NCBI RefSeq assembly: GCF_037101375.1 | Contig: NZ_AP029019.1 | Span: 1,860,001-1,924,000 of the forward strand | From: Acidovorax sp. DW039 | GTDB lineage: Bacteria > Pseudomonadota > Gammaproteobacteria > Burkholderiales > Burkholderiaceae_C | Length of the DNA: 64,000 nt | Direction: 5' to 3' | In this document: in pieces, positions 5,566 to 61,424 of the stretch | Numbering within the stretch: position 1 is the first letter of the stretch | How the letters are laid out: each line of letters begins with the position of its first letter | Position numbers and translations under genes: made by a program | Notes under the pieces: generated by a model | Told to the model about the DNA's origin: nothing | Database searches by the model: none | The model's input: the letters and a program-made list of their open reading frames with translations, nothing else

Positions 5566-5996
5566 GGCCATAGCGGGCCCTGTCACCTTGCGGGCGGGTG
5601 AAGACGCTTTCGCGAACTCTCCTGGTTTTGCTATTGAATTAATAGCTGCCTGCGCTTATTCCATAAGCGCCAGGGGTTAAATGTCTTGTTGACTGCGCAC
5701 CTTGCATTCTCATGAGAAGGGCCTGTAGTTCGTTTCTTTCCGTGATGATCTGAGGCTGTGCCTGGGCGGTTGAGGGTGGGGTGATGGCCGTGCGTTGGAT
5801 GGCGCTGTTGCCATGTGCGCCTTGCACAGGGTGCTTCGTGACCACGCGCCGGAGGTTGACAACTTGTCCACTGCAAGAGGGCGAAAGGGCGCGAGGAGGG
5901 CCTTATATTGCGATGGGCGCCAGGCTTGGGGCAGTCATGACTGCGCCACTGAGCTGCTGGATGCTGAGCGAAAACGAATTACGAACAGGAGTGCCG
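5566..5996. other. 431-bp gap between folK and the orphan pair
   Basis: It contains one copy of the dispersed palindromic repeat (5631-5684). The rest shows no convincing gene. A TTGACA hexamer at 5856 has no matching -10 at proper spacing, and TATATT at 5904 is too far downstream. A clear AGGAG at 5987-5991 belongs to the next gene. Confidence 0.6.
5631..5684. repeat. Dispersed palindromic repeat, copy 1
   Basis: Contains TAGCTGCCTGCGCTT, a short centre and AAGCGCCAGGGG. The left arm matches the other copies closely, while the right arm has decayed after AAGCGC. It sits downstream of folK and could act as its terminator or mRNA end. Confidence 0.75.
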
Positions 5997-24168: not shown

Positions 24169-24193
24169 CGATGGAAAGTAGCTCGCTGCTACT

Positions 24194-24243
24194 TTATTGA
24201 TAGCTGCTTGCGCTTGTACACAGTGCGCTACAGGCTATTTTCT
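24194..24243. repeat. Dispersed palindromic repeat, copy 2
   Basis: Contains TGATAGCTGCTTGCGCTTG, a short centre and GTGCGCTACAGGCTATTTTC. It lies between the convergent genes ribH2 and the chemoreceptor and may terminate one or both. Confidence 0.75.
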
Positions 24244-28523: not shown

Positions 28524-28580
28524 ATAAAAAAGGCCGCTAGCGCTTATTCATCAAGCGCTAGCAGCTATCTTTTTAATAGC
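28524..28580. repeat. Dispersed palindromic repeat, copy 3
   Basis: Contains CGCTAGCGCTTATTC and then TCAAGCGCTAGCAGCTATC, followed by a TTTTTAATAGC tail that other copies share. It fills most of the gap between gcdH and gcdG and so forms the leader of gcdG within the operon. Confidence 0.8.
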
Positions 28581-35266: not shown

Positions 35267-36406
35267 TCAGCGGCCTGCAGCGGCCGTGGCCAGCGCAGAA
35301 AGGGTTTCGTCCAGGCGCGGCAGCTCGGCGGCTTTCATGTGCTGCTGGGCTTGCTGCAGCATGCTGGCGGCGTTCTGTGTGCGACGGGATGCGGGGTCGA
35401 AGTACTTGTTGAGCGCCACCGAAGCCGCAGTCAGGTCTGCCCGGGCCGAGTCGTACTGGCGGGCCAAAACCCCCAGGCGGGCGTTGAGCAGTTTGAGCTT
35501 GAGGTTTTCGCGCAGGAAGAAGGTCTGGTCGGGTGCCAGAAGGATGGCTTCGGGCTGGTCAATGCGGCTCACGCGCACCAGGCCTCGGGCCTCGTCGCGC
35601 ACCACCTCCCACCCGCGCTGCAGGGCTGCGCGCCACCAGGGCAGGTCTGCGTTGTCAGTGGCGGGTGCTGCGCCAGAGGCGGGAGCGCCCATTCTGCGTG
35701 TGGCAGCGGCCTGCGCCACGGCGTTGAGCACAGGCAGCTCGTCCACTTGCCTAACCAGTTCATCCAGCCGTCCTAGTAAACCTGCGGTGTCGGTCACCGT
35801 GGCGCGCGTCAGGCGATCCAGATCGCGACCAATGGCGCGTTGCAGGGGTGCCAGGCGTGGCTGGGCGGCCCGCTCGATCCGCTGGTTGGCTGTTTTGAGT
35901 GCCGCAACCAGAGGCTCCAGTCCACCCGTCAACTGGGCCTGTTGCTGGGCAAGGCGAATGGCGGATTCGATGTCCACCACCAAGTTCTCGTCACGAGAGC
36001 GTGACAGGCTCTGCATCAGCTCTTCAAGCTGGCTGCGTTGCAAGGCCACTTCGCTAACGCGGGCCTCTGCCACTGACAGGCGGGCCGCCGTCTCGCGCAC
36101 CTGGTCTTCCGCCTGGCGCGCAATGGTGCGGGCTTCAATGGCCAGTGCGCCGGAGTCTGCAGACTGCCGGGCGAGCTGTTCCTGAATGCCGCTGAGCTTT
36201 TGCCACAGCAGCACGCTGCTGGTGAGCGCCCCCGCTGCCACGATGCCCAGCAGCAGTTGCCCCAGGCCCATACCACCCGAAGCCGTATGGCGGGTGGGCG
36301 ATGGGGCTGGTGCCTCCGCACCCGAAGGCGTGGCGGCAGTCGTAGGGGGTGTTGTAGTAGGGGCGGGGGTTGCTGCAGGTTGCGGCAGATCAGGAGCAGA
36401 ACTCAT
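35267..36406 (-). CDS. hemX: HemX-family membrane protein (uroporphyrinogen-III C-methyltransferase homolog in name)
   Basis: A 379-residue protein with a Pro/Ala/Thr-rich cytoplasmic start, one membrane helix at about residues 52-73 (GLGQLLLGIVAAGALTSSVL) and a long helical periplasmic region with predicted coiled coil (about 75-140). It lacks the SAM-binding motifs of true methyltransferases, so the common database name is misleading. The ATG at 36406 overlaps the hemD stop as ATGA, which fixes the start. Confidence 0.92.
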   Translation of the reverse strand: MSSAPDLPQPAATPAPTTTPPTTAATPSGAEAPAPSPTRHTASGGMGLGQLLLGIVAAGALTSSVLLWQKLSGIQEQLARQSADSGALAIEARTIARQAEDQVRETAARLSVAEARVSEVALQRSQLEELMQSLSRSRDENLVVDIESAIRLAQQQAQLTGGLEPLVAALKTANQRIERAAQPRLAPLQRAIGRDLDRLTRATVTDTAGLLGRLDELVRQVDELPVLNAVAQAAATRRMGAPASGAAPATDNADLPWWRAALQRGWEVVRDEARGLVRVSRIDQPEAILLAPDQTFFLRENLKLKLLNARLGVLARQYDSARADLTAASVALNKYFDPASRRTQNAASMLQQAQQHMKAAELPRLDETLSALATAAAGR

Positions 36407-37212
36407 GCCCCGGATTCTATCGACGCCACCACGTCTGCAAGGGCTGGGCGGCATTCGCGCACCTGACCAAATCCTGCGTCGCGTGCGGTTTTGGCAATGC
36501 GCGGATGGGTGGCCAAGGCGCTGGCGGTGTGCCAGCTTTGCTGGGGCAGTGCCGCACTCAAATGGGCAATGGCCTCGGAGCTGCTGAAAAGCCAGACGGA
36601 CCCATTGCTGGCCGCCTGCCGTGCAAGGGTCAGTTCATCCGTAGTGAAGGCCGGGGCACCCCGTTGGTATGCCACCACAAATTCCACCTGCGCGCCTGCC
36701 GCTTCTATCTGGCGGGCCAGCCAGTCGCGGCCTGTGCCTTCTGATTCATGCACACCTGCAGAGCGCCCGCGCACGATCAGGATGCGGTCTCCCGGCTGCA
36801 CTTGCCCATGCACCTGTTGCCACAGCGTTTCCGAATCAAACTGCGCTGCGTCGGCTGCGGGGCCATCAATGCGGTCTGCCGCAAACCCCTGCTCCTGCAG
36901 CACTCTGGCCGTGCCGGGGCCGGGTGCCCATGCTCTAGTTTTGATAGCTGCTTGCGCTTGATTATCAAGCGCTGGAGCATGATTTGACTCAAAGAAATAC
37001 AGCGCAGCATTGCCGCTGACGAACATGACCGCCCGGTAGTCTTGCAGCCTTTGAAGCGCTTGGGCCACGGCGGTCTGGGATGCAGGGTCTGTGACCGGGC
37101 CGATATGGATCAGTGGCAGGGCCACCGCAGCAATACCCCGCTGCACCAGCTGCTCCACCCACGGCGCTGCCTCGCGTGCAGGGCGGGTGACGATGACTTG
37201 CGGGGGGAACAT
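36403..37212 (-). CDS. hemD: Uroporphyrinogen-III synthase
   Basis: HemD cyclises hydroxymethylbilane with inversion of ring D. The 269-residue protein has the two alternating domains of the family, opening VIVTRPAREAAPWVEQL and including MFVSGNAALYFF (about residues 63-74), AWAPGPGTARVLQEQG (about 93-108) and SSSEAIAHL (about 215). Between the second and third of these is an extra segment, ESNHAPALDNQAQAAIKTRA, encoded by a copy of the dispersed palindromic repeat. It falls in a surface loop between conserved strands, so the enzyme probably still works. It follows hemC by 44 bp and overlaps hemX by 4 bp. Confidence 0.95.
   Translation of the reverse strand: MFPPQVIVTRPAREAAPWVEQLVQRGIAAVALPLIHIGPVTDPASQTAVAQALQRLQDYRAVMFVSGNAALYFFESNHAPALDNQAQAAIKTRAWAPGPGTARVLQEQGFAADRIDGPAADAAQFDSETLWQQVHGQVQPGDRILIVRGRSAGVHESEGTGRDWLARQIEAAGAQVEFVVAYQRGAPAFTTDELTLARQAASNGSVWLFSSSEAIAHLSAALPQQSWHTASALATHPRIAKTARDAGFGQVRECRPALADVVASIESGA
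36936..36992. repeat. Dispersed palindromic repeat, copy 4, inside hemD
   Basis: Contains TTTTGATAGCTGCTTGCGCT and then ATCAAGCGCTGGAGCATG. It keeps the hemD frame open and adds about 18-20 residues. Arms AGCGCTTGAT/ATCAAGCGC are perfectly paired around one base. Confidence 0.85.
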
Positions 37213-45256: not shown

Positions 45257-45313
45257 GTGTTGATCCTGATGGTCTAGCTTCCAACCAAGAGCATCGTGGG
45301 TGCGCGTATTGCT

Positions 45314-45370
45314 GCTATCAAAAAATAGCTGCCTGCGCTTGATACATAAGCGCAGGCAGCTATTTTTTAT
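45314..45370. repeat. Dispersed palindromic repeat, copy 5 (perfect), bidirectional terminator
   Basis: Two perfect 21-bp arms (45320-45340 and 45348-45368) surround a 7-base loop. Arm core is TAGCTGCCTGCGCTT and the outer end is a run of A/T, so on either strand the RNA forms a long stem ending in U. It lies between the convergent FlgO-like and flhC genes, 24 bp past the flhC stop, and can terminate both. Confidence 0.92.
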
Positions 45371-45391
45371 CTCATTGATGTCAGTGCAATA

Positions 45392-48625: not shown

Positions 48626-48656
48626 GGAATGTGAAACCTGTTGAGTAGGGTTGAAA

Positions 48657-48705
48657 TAAAAATAGCTGCCAGCGCAGGAATGACTTGCGCTGGCAGCTAT
48701 TCTAA
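48657..48705. repeat. Dispersed palindromic repeat, copy 6
   Basis: Two perfect 16-bp arms (AATAGCTGCCAGCGCA at 48661-48676 and its complement at 48686-48701) around a 9-base loop. It lies between the Rieske oxygenase gene end and the EamA gene start, both minus strand, and may terminate the oxygenase transcript. Confidence 0.88.
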
Positions 48706-48785
48706 TGAGAGCAAATTTGCAGCGTCTGGTCTATTGGCGCTGTTTTGCCATCGTATTCGGAGCTTTGTAGGCCTGGTCGGCTGTC

Positions 48786-51432: not shown

Positions 51433-51500
51433 GGCCGCTTTGCGGTGGGTTGATGTGACGGCGTCGTTCGCTGCGGCCCTTGTTATCGATATATGTGTTG

Positions 51501-51553
51501 AAACAGCCTCCTGCGCTTGACTAGAAAGCGCAGGCAGCTATCAAAAGAATAGT
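51501..51553. repeat. Dispersed palindromic repeat, copy 7, forming the dxs leader
   Basis: Contains CCTGCGCTTGACTAG and AAAGCGCAGGCAGCTATC, then CAAAAGAATAG. It runs to within 3 bp of the dxs start codon, so the ribosome-binding region of dxs is made of repeat sequence; no AGGAG-like site is present. Confidence 0.85.
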
Positions 51554-58958: not shown

Positions 58959-58994
58959 AGGATTTCATATCGCTGGAGATTGTCTGGGTGCATA
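58952..58994. promoter_or_regulatory. Candidate operator between the regulator and tupB
   Basis: TATGCAC at 58952-58958 and GTGCATA at 58988-58994 are exact inverted repeats. The two divergent genes are only 29-50 bp apart, so overlapping promoters and a shared control site are expected. The arms coincide with the regulator's first codons and with the tupB start region, so they may also reflect the two start codons. Confidence 0.4.
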
Positions 58995-59746
58995 CGATAG
59001 TCGAATCCATGTCTACCCTCACCGAAAGCGCGAGTACAGCGCTGCAACTCACTTTCTCCGCCGATCCTGCTCTCTGGACCATCGTTGGCCGCTCCCTCTC
59101 TGTCAGTGCCACGGCCTGCGCACTCGCCTGTGGCGCGGGGCTGATGCTGGGTGCTTGGCTGGGCGTAGCCCGCTTTGCGGGGCGTGGGGCGGTGCTGGCG
59201 GTGCTCAATACCCTGCTGGCTGTCCCCTCGGTCGTGGTGGGGCTGGTGGTGTACCTGCTGCTCTCGCGCAGCGGCCCGCTGGGTAGCTGGGGCTGGCTCT
59301 TCAGCTTCAAGGCCATGGTGCTGGCCCAGGCGATTCTGGTGTTGCCCGTGGCCACGGCTCTGACGCGGCAGGTGGTGGAGGATGCCGATCGGGCCCACGG
59401 CGAGCAGCTGCAGTCCTTGGGGGCATCGCCCCTGTTGCTCAGCCTGATGCTGGCCTGGGACGAGCGCTATGCCTTGCTCACCGTGCTGCTGGCGTCTTTT
59501 GGCCGCGCCATCTCCGAGGTGGGGGCGGTGATGATCGTGGGCGGCAACATCGATGGATTCACCCGTGTGATGACCACTGCCATTGCGCTGGAGACCAGCA
59601 AGGGCGACCTGCCCCTCGCGCTGGCGCTGGGCATGGTGCTGCTGGCGGTGGTGCTGGCGCTGAATGTGGTGATTGCGCTGCTGCGGCGCTGGCGGGAGAA
59701 GGTGGACGGAGCGGCTGCAGGCCTGCCTGTTGGGGTGGCCGCATGA
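58988..59746 (+). CDS. tupB: Tungstate ABC transporter permease
   Basis: A 252-residue inner-membrane permease with about five or six hydrophobic helices and the EAA-type loop DADRAHGEQLQSLGASPLLL (about residues 136-155) that contacts the ATPase. It belongs to the TupB family of tungstate importers. The GTG at 58988 has GGAG nine bases before it; an ATG seven codons later (59009, MSTLTES) is the alternative start but lacks a ribosome site. The end overlaps tupC as ATGA. Confidence 0.93.
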   Translation: MHTIVESMSTLTESASTALQLTFSADPALWTIVGRSLSVSATACALACGAGLMLGAWLGVARFAGRGAVLAVLNTLLAVPSVVVGLVVYLLLSRSGPLGSWGWLFSFKAMVLAQAILVLPVATALTRQVVEDADRAHGEQLQSLGASPLLLSLMLAWDERYALLTVLLASFGRAISEVGAVMIVGGNIDGFTRVMTTAIALETSKGDLPLALALGMVLLAVVLALNVVIALLRRWREKVDGAAAGLPVGVAA

Positions 59747-60495
59747 CTGCGTTGCAAAAGGCTGCTGGTGCGGCTGGCGTGGCCCCGATCATGGATTTGC
59801 AGGATGTAGATGTGCGCTTTGGGCGCGTGCACGCACTGGCCGGGGTGAGCTTGCGCATCCATCCGGGCGAGCGTGTGGCCCTGGTGGGCGCCAACGGCAG
59901 CGGCAAAAGCACCTTGCTGCGGGTGTTGAATGGCTTGGTGGCTCCCAGCGCAGGTCGTCATGTGACGGCACCCACCGCGCGGCAGGCCATGCTTTTCCAG
60001 CGCCCGCACATGCTGCGCACCAGTGCTCAGAACAATGTGGCCCTCGGGTTGTGGTTGCGGGGGCATCGTTGGTCGCAGGCCCGCATGCTGGCCCTCGATG
60101 CTTTGCAACGGGTGGGGCTGGAGGCTGTGGCCCAGCAAAACGCGCGCACCTTGTCTGGCGGCCAGCAGCAGCGGGTGGCCCTTGCCCGGGCCTGGGCCCT
60201 GCAGCCCGCTGCCCTTTTGCTGGATGAGCCCACCTCCAGCCTGGACCCCCACGCCAAGCGCGAGGTGGAGGCGCTGATGGCGGAGTTTGCGGGCCACCGC
60301 GCAGGTGAGGGTGATGGCGCTCAGCCCGTGACCATGGTGTTCAGCAGCCACAACCTGGGTCAGGTCAAGCGGCTGGCCAGTCGCGTCGTGTACCTCGAAC
60401 ACGGCCGTCTGGTGGCGGATTTGCCGGTGCACGATTTTTTCAACGGTCCCCTGCCGGAGGCCGCACGTTTGTTTGTCAAAGGAGAACTGGTATGA
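59743..60495 (+). CDS. tupC: Tungstate ABC transporter ATP-binding protein
   Basis: A 250-residue ABC ATPase with Walker A GANGSGKSTLL (about residues 49-59), the signature LSGGQQQRVALARA (about 141-154) and Walker B LLLDEPTSSLD (about 164-174). It energises tungstate uptake. It overlaps both neighbours by ATGA (59743-59746 and 60492-60495), so tupB, tupC and tupA are translationally coupled. Confidence 0.94.
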   Translation: MTALQKAAGAAGVAPIMDLQDVDVRFGRVHALAGVSLRIHPGERVALVGANGSGKSTLLRVLNGLVAPSAGRHVTAPTARQAMLFQRPHMLRTSAQNNVALGLWLRGHRWSQARMLALDALQRVGLEAVAQQNARTLSGGQQQRVALARAWALQPAALLLDEPTSSLDPHAKREVEALMAEFAGHRAGEGDGAQPVTMVFSSHNLGQVKRLASRVVYLEHGRLVADLPVHDFFNGPLPEAARLFVKGELV

Positions 60496-61319
60496 ACGGT
60501 TTGGAACAATTTTGGGCTCTAAAGCCCGTCCATAAAGCGGTGGCAGCTATTATTTTGATAGCTTCTGGCGCGGCTTCTGCCCAGTCCATCACGATGGCCT
60601 CGACCACTTCTACCGAGCAGTCCGGGCTGTTTTCGTATCTGCTGCCAGAGTTCAAGAAGGCCAGTGGTCTGGATGTCAAGGTGGTGGCCTTGGGCACTGG
60701 GCAGGCGCTCGACACGGCTCGTCGTGGTGATGCGGATGTGCTCTTTGTGCACGACCAGGCGGCTGAAGAGAAGTTTGTGGCCGACGGCTGGGCCGTGAAG
60801 CGCTATCCGGTCATGTACAACGACTTCATTCTGGTCGGCCCCAAGGCCGACCCCGCTGGAACCAAGGGCAAAGACATTGTGGAGGCCTTGAAGAAGCTCG
60901 CTGCATCGAACACCGAGTTCGTGTCGCGCGGAGACAAGTCTGGCACACATGCCGCCGAGCTGCGTTACTGGAAGCTGGCTGGTGCTGACTCTGCCAAGGG
61001 CAGCGGCTACAAGGAATGTGGCTGCGGCATGGGGCCTGCGCTCAACATCGCTGCGTCCAGCGGTGCCTATGTGCTGGCAGACCGTGGTACCTGGCTCAAC
61101 TTCAAGAACCGCGCAGACTTGGCCATCTTGGTGGAAGGAGACACACGTCTCTTCAACCAGTACGGTGTGATGGTGGTCAATCCTGCCAAGCATCCTCACG
61201 TGAAGGCGCAGGACGCGCAGAAGTTCGTGGACTGGGTGGTGTCGCCTGCGGGGCAGAACGTGATTGCGTCTTACAAGATCGGCGGCGAGCAGCTTTTCTT
61301 CCCGAACGCTGGCAAGTAA
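60492..61319 (+). CDS. tupA: Tungstate-binding periplasmic protein
   Basis: TupA captures tungstate in the periplasm. The 275-residue protein has the family's oxyanion motif with TTS at the start of the mature part (ITMASTTSTEQSGLFSYLLP, about residues 33-52), then DADVLFVHDQAAEEKFV (about 80-96) and SRGDKSGTHAAELRYWK. The signal peptide is odd: WALKPVHKAVAAIILIASGA, its charged end and hydrophobic core, is encoded by a copy of the dispersed palindromic repeat. Cleavage is expected after AASAQ, around residue 30. Last gene of tupBCA. Confidence 0.95.
   Translation: MNGLEQFWALKPVHKAVAAIILIASGAASAQSITMASTTSTEQSGLFSYLLPEFKKASGLDVKVVALGTGQALDTARRGDADVLFVHDQAAEEKFVADGWAVKRYPVMYNDFILVGPKADPAGTKGKDIVEALKKLAASNTEFVSRGDKSGTHAAELRYWKLAGADSAKGSGYKECGCGMGPALNIAASSGAYVLADRGTWLNFKNRADLAILVEGDTRLFNQYGVMVVNPAKHPHVKAQDAQKFVDWVVSPAGQNVIASYKIGGEQLFFPNAGK
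60513..60563. repeat. Dispersed palindromic repeat, copy 8, inside tupA
   Basis: Contains CATAAAGCGGTGGCAGCTAT followed by TATTTTGATAGC, the same right arm and tail as copy 3; the left arm (GGCTCTAAAGCCCGTC) has drifted. It encodes residues 8-24 of the TupA signal peptide. Confidence 0.8.
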
Positions 61320-61424
61320 GGCCCTTGCGTGTACAAGCCACGGCCCGCATTGCTGCATCATCCCGGGTGCTGGGTATGTGAACCGTCCTGTCAGGGGCGC
61401 TTCGCTGAGTTGTGAGAGCTGCTC

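Follow-up and report, generated by a model that had tools for sequence, protein, structure and literature searches.

The tup locus and the repeat at the start of tupA

The stretch of DNA analyzed here (the window) is a 64,000-nucleotide piece of the 5.2 Mb genome of Acidovorax sp. DW039 (denoted G000), whose nearest named relatives, as judged by TupA, are Acidovorax. It holds a three-gene tup set, the last gene of which, tupA, carries near its 5' end a member of a dispersed family of palindromic repeats that is translated as the core of the predicted export signal of TupA. The tupA-like gene (60492..61319, + strand) encodes a protein of 275 amino acids, which profile matches identify as the periplasmic anion-binding protein of an ATP-binding cassette (ABC) importer. 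The protein matches PBP_like_2 (PF12849) with 147.6 bits, above the gathering cut-off of 27, and the NCBIfam TupA model NF041772 with 238 bits, under the curated cut-off of 400. Its name is based on gene order and on the source-given names of close homologues, some of which are called tungstate transport substrate-binding protein. Upstream of tupA lie a tupB-like permease gene (58988..59746, +), which scores above the cut-off of ABC_perm1 NF038017 and under that of the TupB model, and a tupC-like gene for the ATP-binding subunit (59743..60495, +), which overlaps the start of tupA by 4 nucleotides. The three genes encode the parts of an anion importer, whose substrate is probably tungstate.

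The tupA reading frame starts at ATG 60492, which overlaps the tupC stop codon and lies 7 nucleotides downstream of the Shine-Dalgarno (SD) sequence AGGAG (60480..60484, +). A CAARGGAGA site is found ahead of tupA in 18 of the 23 loci of G000 and other genomes of its genus. At L011, L015, L017, L020 and L027 this site is absent and the upstream DNA is different, while the repeat element is still present; the operon join may have changed in these five loci. A second in-frame ATG is present at 60594, and if translation truly started there the repeat would remain untranslated. This ATG lacks an SD sequence and its use would cut into the conserved motif ITMASTTST, whereas ATG 60492 has the AGGAG, the overlap with the tupC stop and, in 18 of 23 loci, the CAARGGAGA site; the probability of a downstream start is therefore close to nil. 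The start thus lies upstream of the repeat, a point on which an earlier note on this DNA had made its proposal depend.

The repeat element occupies positions 60507..60562 (+), is 56 nucleotides long and has a matrix score of 60.9. Its right arm, GCAGCTATTATTTTGATAGC (60543..60562, +), is predicted to form a hairpin and is translated in the frame from ATG 60492 as A-A-I-I-L-I-A, the last codon being completed by T60563. This bears out the earlier note, which had read AAIILIA from a repeat copy within the first 30 codons of tupA. The family was collected by searching the genome for the 20-nucleotide right arm with up to 3 mismatches, using the pattern read backwards as a control; the arm was found at 95 places in G000 and the control at none. 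A weight matrix of 56 positions was trained on 86 of the 95 places, leaving out tupA itself and eight copies in likely genes read in the same frame. The family consensus, tcAAAAagGCCtCTAGCGCTTaTtaAtcAAGCGCAGGCAGCTATTaTTTTGATAGC, forms two consecutive hairpins and has a GC content of 41%, compared with 63% for the window. The tupA element scores close to the family median (60.9 and 65.1, respectively). When both strands of the window were scanned (127,888 positions), ten matches at eight places, tupA included, scored above 26, and the next best position scored 7.7. The left 36 nucleotides of the tupA element alone score 22.8, a value reached by 12 of the 127,888 positions, the element itself and other family members among them. 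Evenly spaced 400-kb samples of four Acidovorax genomes, about 8% of each, contained 47–70 copies per sample, corresponding to an estimated 570–830 family sites per genome. A search of Rfam over 59700–61400 gave no match at E values up to 1.

Features of the TupA leader

The leader of TupA comprises 30 residues, MNGLEQFWALKPVHKAVAAIILIASGAASA. The element provides leader codons 6–23 (QFWALKPVHKAVAAIILI) and two bases of codon 24. The repeat had been credited with the hydrophobic core, and this part of the claim stands, with the addition that the basic residues beside the core also come from the element, which covers residues 6–24 of the 30. The cleavage region SGAASA (60564..60581, +), recognized by its sequence, lies outside the repeat, and a similar region is found in TupA proteins that lack the element. 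Signal peptidase cuts after small residues at positions -3 and -1, the A-x-A rule. The TupA leader has the features of a Sec signal peptide cut by signal peptidase I: ASA precedes Q31, so that a cut is predicted before Q31 (60582); the region before the core has a net charge of +1 (+1 to +6 in four other element-bearing leaders of G000, described below); and the uncharged core AVAAIILIA has a mean hydropathy of 3.19. Removal of the element's residues lowers the best 9-residue hydropathy of the leader from 3.19 to 0.37 and leaves no hydrophobic core, supporting the view that TupA would have no export signal without the repeat. A signal function of the element in TupA is thus predicted.

Leaders with and without the element were also compared. 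The best 9-residue hydropathy within the 30 residues before the mature anchor has a median of 2.94 at 73 loci with the element and 2.58 at 51 loci without it. Among leaders with SD support, those with the element (62 of 73 loci) have a median length of 32 codons and those without it (47 of 51 loci) one of 28. Since both kinds of leader share the cleavage region as well as the start and its ribosome-binding site, and since leaders with the element are only about 4 codons longer even though the element spans about 19 codons, the element probably replaced an older core and was not simply added. Two alternatives had been offered by the earlier note, replacement of part of an older signal and creation of a new one; these comparisons favor the first over the second.

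Distribution of the element among tupA loci

We collected 140 tupA loci, of which 137 could be anchored and scored (L037, L038 and L085 had no anchor and were dropped); some genomes are counted twice. With a leader score of at least 15 taken as presence, 73 loci carry the element, 11 score between -10 and 15, and 53 score below. Scored on both strands, the mature parts of these 137 loci stay below 15 throughout, with a maximum of -0.2. The element lies 25 nucleotides before the mature anchor in nearly all carriers (22, 28 or 37 in a few) and its reading frame is identical in all of them. It is present in 21 of the 23 loci from G000 and its genus.

A tree of 113 distinct mature TupA proteins contains 55 with the element, 10 with a weak copy and 48 without it. 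Carriers are spread over the Comamonadaceae and include loci named Acidovorax, Paracidovorax, Diaphorobacter, Ottowia, Rhodoferax and Curvibacter, while other Curvibacter loci lack the element; it is also found in a close relative of a Polaromonas that itself has a weak copy. Outgroup families do not have it, and it is absent from the Limnohabitans clade, from loci labelled Azoarcus and Pigmentiphaga and from the five scored loci of other families (L032–L036, scores -26 to -61; L037 and L038 could not be anchored). The patterns used found no family copy in G025, G028, G033 and G026, four of the five other-family genomes, G035 being outside this search. Distant genera that lack the family therefore also lack the corresponding DNA in tupA, as the earlier note had required. 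Presence labels change at least 14 times on the TupA tree, compared with 37.9 times when labels are shuffled. We read this pattern as an early gain that was followed by losses.

The element in other genes encoding exported proteins

Four further genes of G000 carry the element at their start in the frame used in tupA. They encode a DUF2147 protein (PF09917), an M48 peptidase (PF01435), an amidohydrolase (PF04909) and a TctC-type binding protein (PF03401). The element is conserved in 14 of 15 genus loci of the amidohydrolase, in 16 of 17 of DUF2147 and in 9 of 10 close orthologues of TctC. For M48 it is present in 9 of 18 anchored genus loci, and a further 7 have scores from -7.1 to 15 at that place; judged by these scores, the seven weak loci form a series of decay. 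Loci of other families lack the element in all cases scored (M48, 10 of 10 anchored; amidohydrolase, 2 of 2; DUF2147, 2 of 2), no TctC locus having been scored there. The DUF2147 element also holds GGAG and an ATG, so that a single repeat contains the ribosome-binding site, the start codon and the signal. Without the residues of the element, the best 9-residue hydropathy falls to 0.99, 0.57 or -0.50 in the three leaders other than that of M48. The same family thus appears to have been recruited separately, in the same frame, in several other Acidovorax exported proteins.

One genome of the genus, G005, lacks the element at all five loci tested by orthologues (scores -20.8 to -52.1) and is among the exceptions for each gene. 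A single pattern finds 3 family copies in G005 and 5 in G002, and 32–412 copies in 22 of the 24 same-genus genomes, G000 included. G002 gave no tupA match and its M48 gene is without the element. The near-absence of the family in these two genomes may reflect loss, or the family may never have expanded there.

Inheritance of the copies and their wobble bases

We compared 14 signal-peptide copies from four species with the repeat family of their own genome and with the same locus in other species. The own-genome family was the best fit for 5 copies (3.5 expected by chance), and identity to the same locus elsewhere exceeded the mean identity to the own-genome family for all 14, figures to be read knowing that the 14 copies are not independent, that the families come from about 8% of each genome and that one sample includes the tested M48 site. 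Because the copies on average resemble the same locus in other species more than their own family, they have most likely been inherited together with their genes.

Gene conversion or re-insertion from a genome's active family could also keep the copies repeat-like. Single own-genome copies that are closer than the same locus elsewhere do occur, the family-poor genomes G005, G125, G226, G183, G251 and G207 have no leader copy or a decayed one, and the fraction of A or T at the wobble positions of the tupA copies (0.86) equals that of the family (0.83–0.87), all of which would fit such concerted evolution. Yet G126 and G331, with 3 family copies each by a strict pattern, hold well-kept tupA copies scoring 59.6 and 39.7. 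Moreover, G stands at position 15 in 39 of 54 tupA sequences, against 18 of 43, 13 of 53, 34 of 69 and 24 of 45 sites in the sampled families. The own-against-other comparison of the 14 copies likewise did not support concerted evolution with the genome's family, and we consider this explanation quite unlikely.

The six wobble positions of the tupA right arm are A or T in 283 of 330 cases (86%), whereas the mature part has 14%. Of 50 element-bearing loci, 48 use ATA or GTA as codon 6 of the arm. These figures are inflated because the loci were chosen by a score of at least 15, which favors conserved copies and leaves out 2 of the 23 loci of G000 and its genus. In the mature parts of these loci ATA makes up 2 of 408 Ile codons and GTA 18 of 1067 Val codons. 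These wobble bases bear on whether the leader is an ordinary signal peptide whose DNA resembles the repeat by chance. Any hydrophobic core needs Ala, Ile, Leu and Val, and in the M48 series the core stays while the repeat DNA is lost, both as convergence would predict. At the DNA level, however, convergence is refuted: the likeness spans 56 nucleotides including the part before the core, the left 36 nucleotides of the element being recognized alone, and it extends to the wobble positions with their rare ATA and GTA codons, whereas 42 leaders without the repeat have only 20% A or T at these wobble positions, like their mature parts. A chance resemblance is thus highly improbable.

Within the genus, comparisons of codons for the same residue showed that A or T at the wobble position is kept in 95% of cases in the right arm and in 34% in the mature part. 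This raises the alternative that tupA retains the element for a hairpin that its DNA or RNA forms after the start codon, the signal peptide being incidental. The mutually pairing positions 5 and 17 hardly vary, each being constant in 52 of 54 sequences, and folding against shuffled sequences favored the element alone (z -2.41, with 6 of 200 shuffles as good) and a 101-nucleotide stretch of L017 (z -3.10). In contrast, the 101 nucleotides around the G000 start gave a z of only -0.58, the G000 tupA copy does not preserve the pairing of the family's left hairpin, and no covariation was found for a kept tupA hairpin, the pair 7–15 varying on both sides (Fisher p 0.75). The residue before the core is hydrophobic in 48 of 54 tupA sequences, and the M48 leaders drop the DNA yet retain the core, both of which speak for the peptide. 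Selection for a hairpin alone seems to us rather unlikely. The A/T-rich wobble bases of the tupA right arm are an odd feature.

Copies in reverse orientation and elsewhere

Read in reverse, the element encodes A-I-K-x-I-A-A-C-A-L-L. Reverse copies are found in G000 in the leaders of an SCO1 protein, a cupredoxin, an M16 peptidase, an ABC auxiliary lipoprotein and LolA (assigned by Pfam), and in G022 in LolA and, by leader similarity, M16. These five genes are candidates for recruited leaders. Many SCO1 leaders among the homologues of L166:1509-2117 (P0121-P0240) share a KRNAxKxIAxxAL-like start resembling the reverse repeat reading, a likeness that may be due to ancient recruitment or to chance.

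Copies in the tupA frame are also present in G000 in apolipoprotein N-acyltransferase-like and MatE-family genes (L159:1491-1546 and L200:1477-1532; Pfam), where they read as hydrophobic, membrane-helix-like stretches. Others lie in frame within genes for soluble proteins. These include a diaminopimelate epimerase and an RNA uracil methyltransferase-like protein (Pfam; among L377:366-1241, L363:1187-2647 (-), L197 and L204), and two more from the same set (L377, L363, L197, L204) that we take, from their motifs, to be an ABC ATPase and a CoaBC-like protein. In the window, a HemD-like uroporphyrinogen-III synthase gene (36406–37212, -; PF02602, 100.6 bits) contains an in-frame copy at 36932..36987 (-, score 52.9). 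The other copies in the window lie on the + strand at 28525..28580 (score 80.4), 45320..45375 (46.8, a palindromic place that also matches 45313–45368 on the - strand), 48657..48712 (38.2, also matching 48650–48705 on the - strand) and 51498..51553 (45.8), and on the - strand at 24188..24243 (49.6) and 5630..5685 (63.7).

Candidates were found by a frame survey based on codon usage, a rough measure with 7 training genes. Because the survey also lists copies in other frames, N-termini that are not signal-like and in-frame copies inside soluble proteins, no claim is made that signal peptides occur among them more often than by chance. The codon before the core encodes a hydrophobic residue in 7 of 7 signal and membrane copies of G000 and in 15 of 86 other copies, the latter chosen by similarity to the tupA arm. 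On even samples the hydrophobic fraction was 10 of 43 in G000 and 30 of 53, 29 of 69 and 20 of 45 in three other species; the contrast, confined to G000, is weak and was rejected as a general signature.

Discussion

The DNA identity between the tupA leader and the repeat family, the common frame, the conservation of the element, its recurrence in other leaders and its inheritance with the locus are, in our judgment, very probably best explained as a whole by a repeat that became the core of the tupA leader, was inherited and was recruited again elsewhere. A double-hairpin repeat of approximately 56 nucleotides would have entered the 5' end of tupA early on, in an ancestor shared by much of the Comamonadaceae, presumably by insertion and not by another route. 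In one frame its left part would supply basic and aromatic residues (e.g. FWxLxLxHK) and its right hairpin arm the helix-forming A-L/V-A-A-I-x-L/F-I/V-A. It would have displaced an older hydrophobic core while the existing start and cleavage region stayed on either side, and the repeat core would since have been passed on as the Sec signal peptide of TupA, with later losses in some lineages. Several other Acidovorax exported proteins would have recruited the family independently in this same frame. The case is older in tupA and broader over genes than the earlier note saw.

Several points weigh against this explanation. The signal-peptide role is predicted from hydropathy, charge and the A-x-A rule, and in the M48 leader the loss of hydropathy is small, since the best 9-residue value is still 2.02 without the element. 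Of the at least 14 label changes on the TupA tree, 9 are forced by well-supported branches, so that one origin needs many losses and tupA may have gained the element more than once. The two loci of the 23 that lack the element are L026, a relic-like leader with GC-rich wobble bases, and L031 (genome G005), an unrelated leader. The broken left hairpin of the G000 tupA copy departs from the family structure. Finally, mobility of the family is suggested by its dispersal and not by an empty site with target duplication.

A further-reaching proposal is that the family works as a portable export-signal cassette that this lineage took up some ten times, in either orientation, LolA included, and once (DUF2147) with its own ribosome-binding site and start codon, and that the tupA copies remain under selection at the nucleotide level, the same bases doubling as DNA or RNA element and signal peptide. 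Taken as one joint claim, this is tentative and somewhat more likely to fail than to hold.

The use of a repeat as a signal sequence has a published precedent in YPO1552 of Yersinia, which involves RU-2, the Yersinia palindromic sequence, and whose relatives in other genera have unrelated predicted signal sequences (PMC2759123, PMC2229807, Delihas). The main case there is one putative exported protein of 144 amino acids conserved in two Yersinia species. Unlike it, the Acidovorax case involves five genes that belong to known families and were tested through orthologues, one of which carries the element across several genera, and its conservation was measured at the DNA level. Rickettsia palindromic elements are similar in being short palindromic repeats tolerated in frame in many unrelated genes; they differ in being about 150 bp long and are described as neutral or slightly harmful additions (PMC10969869, PMC2229807). 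The Acidovorax element, by contrast, is AT-rich, 56 nucleotides long and part of an N-terminal targeting region, the two being set apart by their descriptions and not by sequence.

High-copy short palindromes that are mostly intergenic, with some copies in genes and some N-terminal, are also known as GTAG/CGTC repetitive extragenic palindromic (REP) sequences, whose N-terminal copies are treated as often misannotated or neutral (PMC3733652). The main text of PMC3733652 contains no mention of Acidovorax, Polaromonas, Rhodoferax, Comamon or signal peptide. Many copies of our family end in ATAGC or GTAGC, within the right hairpin. G000 has two Y1_Tnp genes, and the best element scores within about 1.5 kb of them are -16.2 and 2.5, with one weak match to the 20-nucleotide arm near the second gene. 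No REP-associated tyrosine transposase (RAYT) flanked by repeat copies was found in G000, and linkage of the family to a RAYT was rejected. The Beta-proteobacterial repeat element (BRE) is likewise dispersed in Bordetella and Comamonadaceae with some copies in coding sequences; it is about 90 bp long, has 69% GC in Bordetella and occurs in 1–29 copies per listed genome (PMC3110155). Our element, with 56 nucleotides, a consensus of 41% GC and hundreds of sites, does not correspond to BRE, as compared by description and not by sequence. We found no description of the Acidovorax family or of its use in tupA in the literature searched, which mostly did not extend to subscription journals. What appears to be new here is the recurrent and long-kept recruitment of one repeat family as signal peptides, the idea itself having a precedent.

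The origin of new signal peptides is rarely traceable, although signal peptides look interchangeable in sequence space. Here the donor DNA is still recognizable at wobble positions, which allows recruitment, frame, age and decay to be traced through many species and several genes. The retention of A/T wobble codons presents a concrete puzzle, and the copies offer a natural series for gauging the freedom of the signal-peptide core. Repeats labelled extragenic can thus turn into long-lived parts of conserved proteins.
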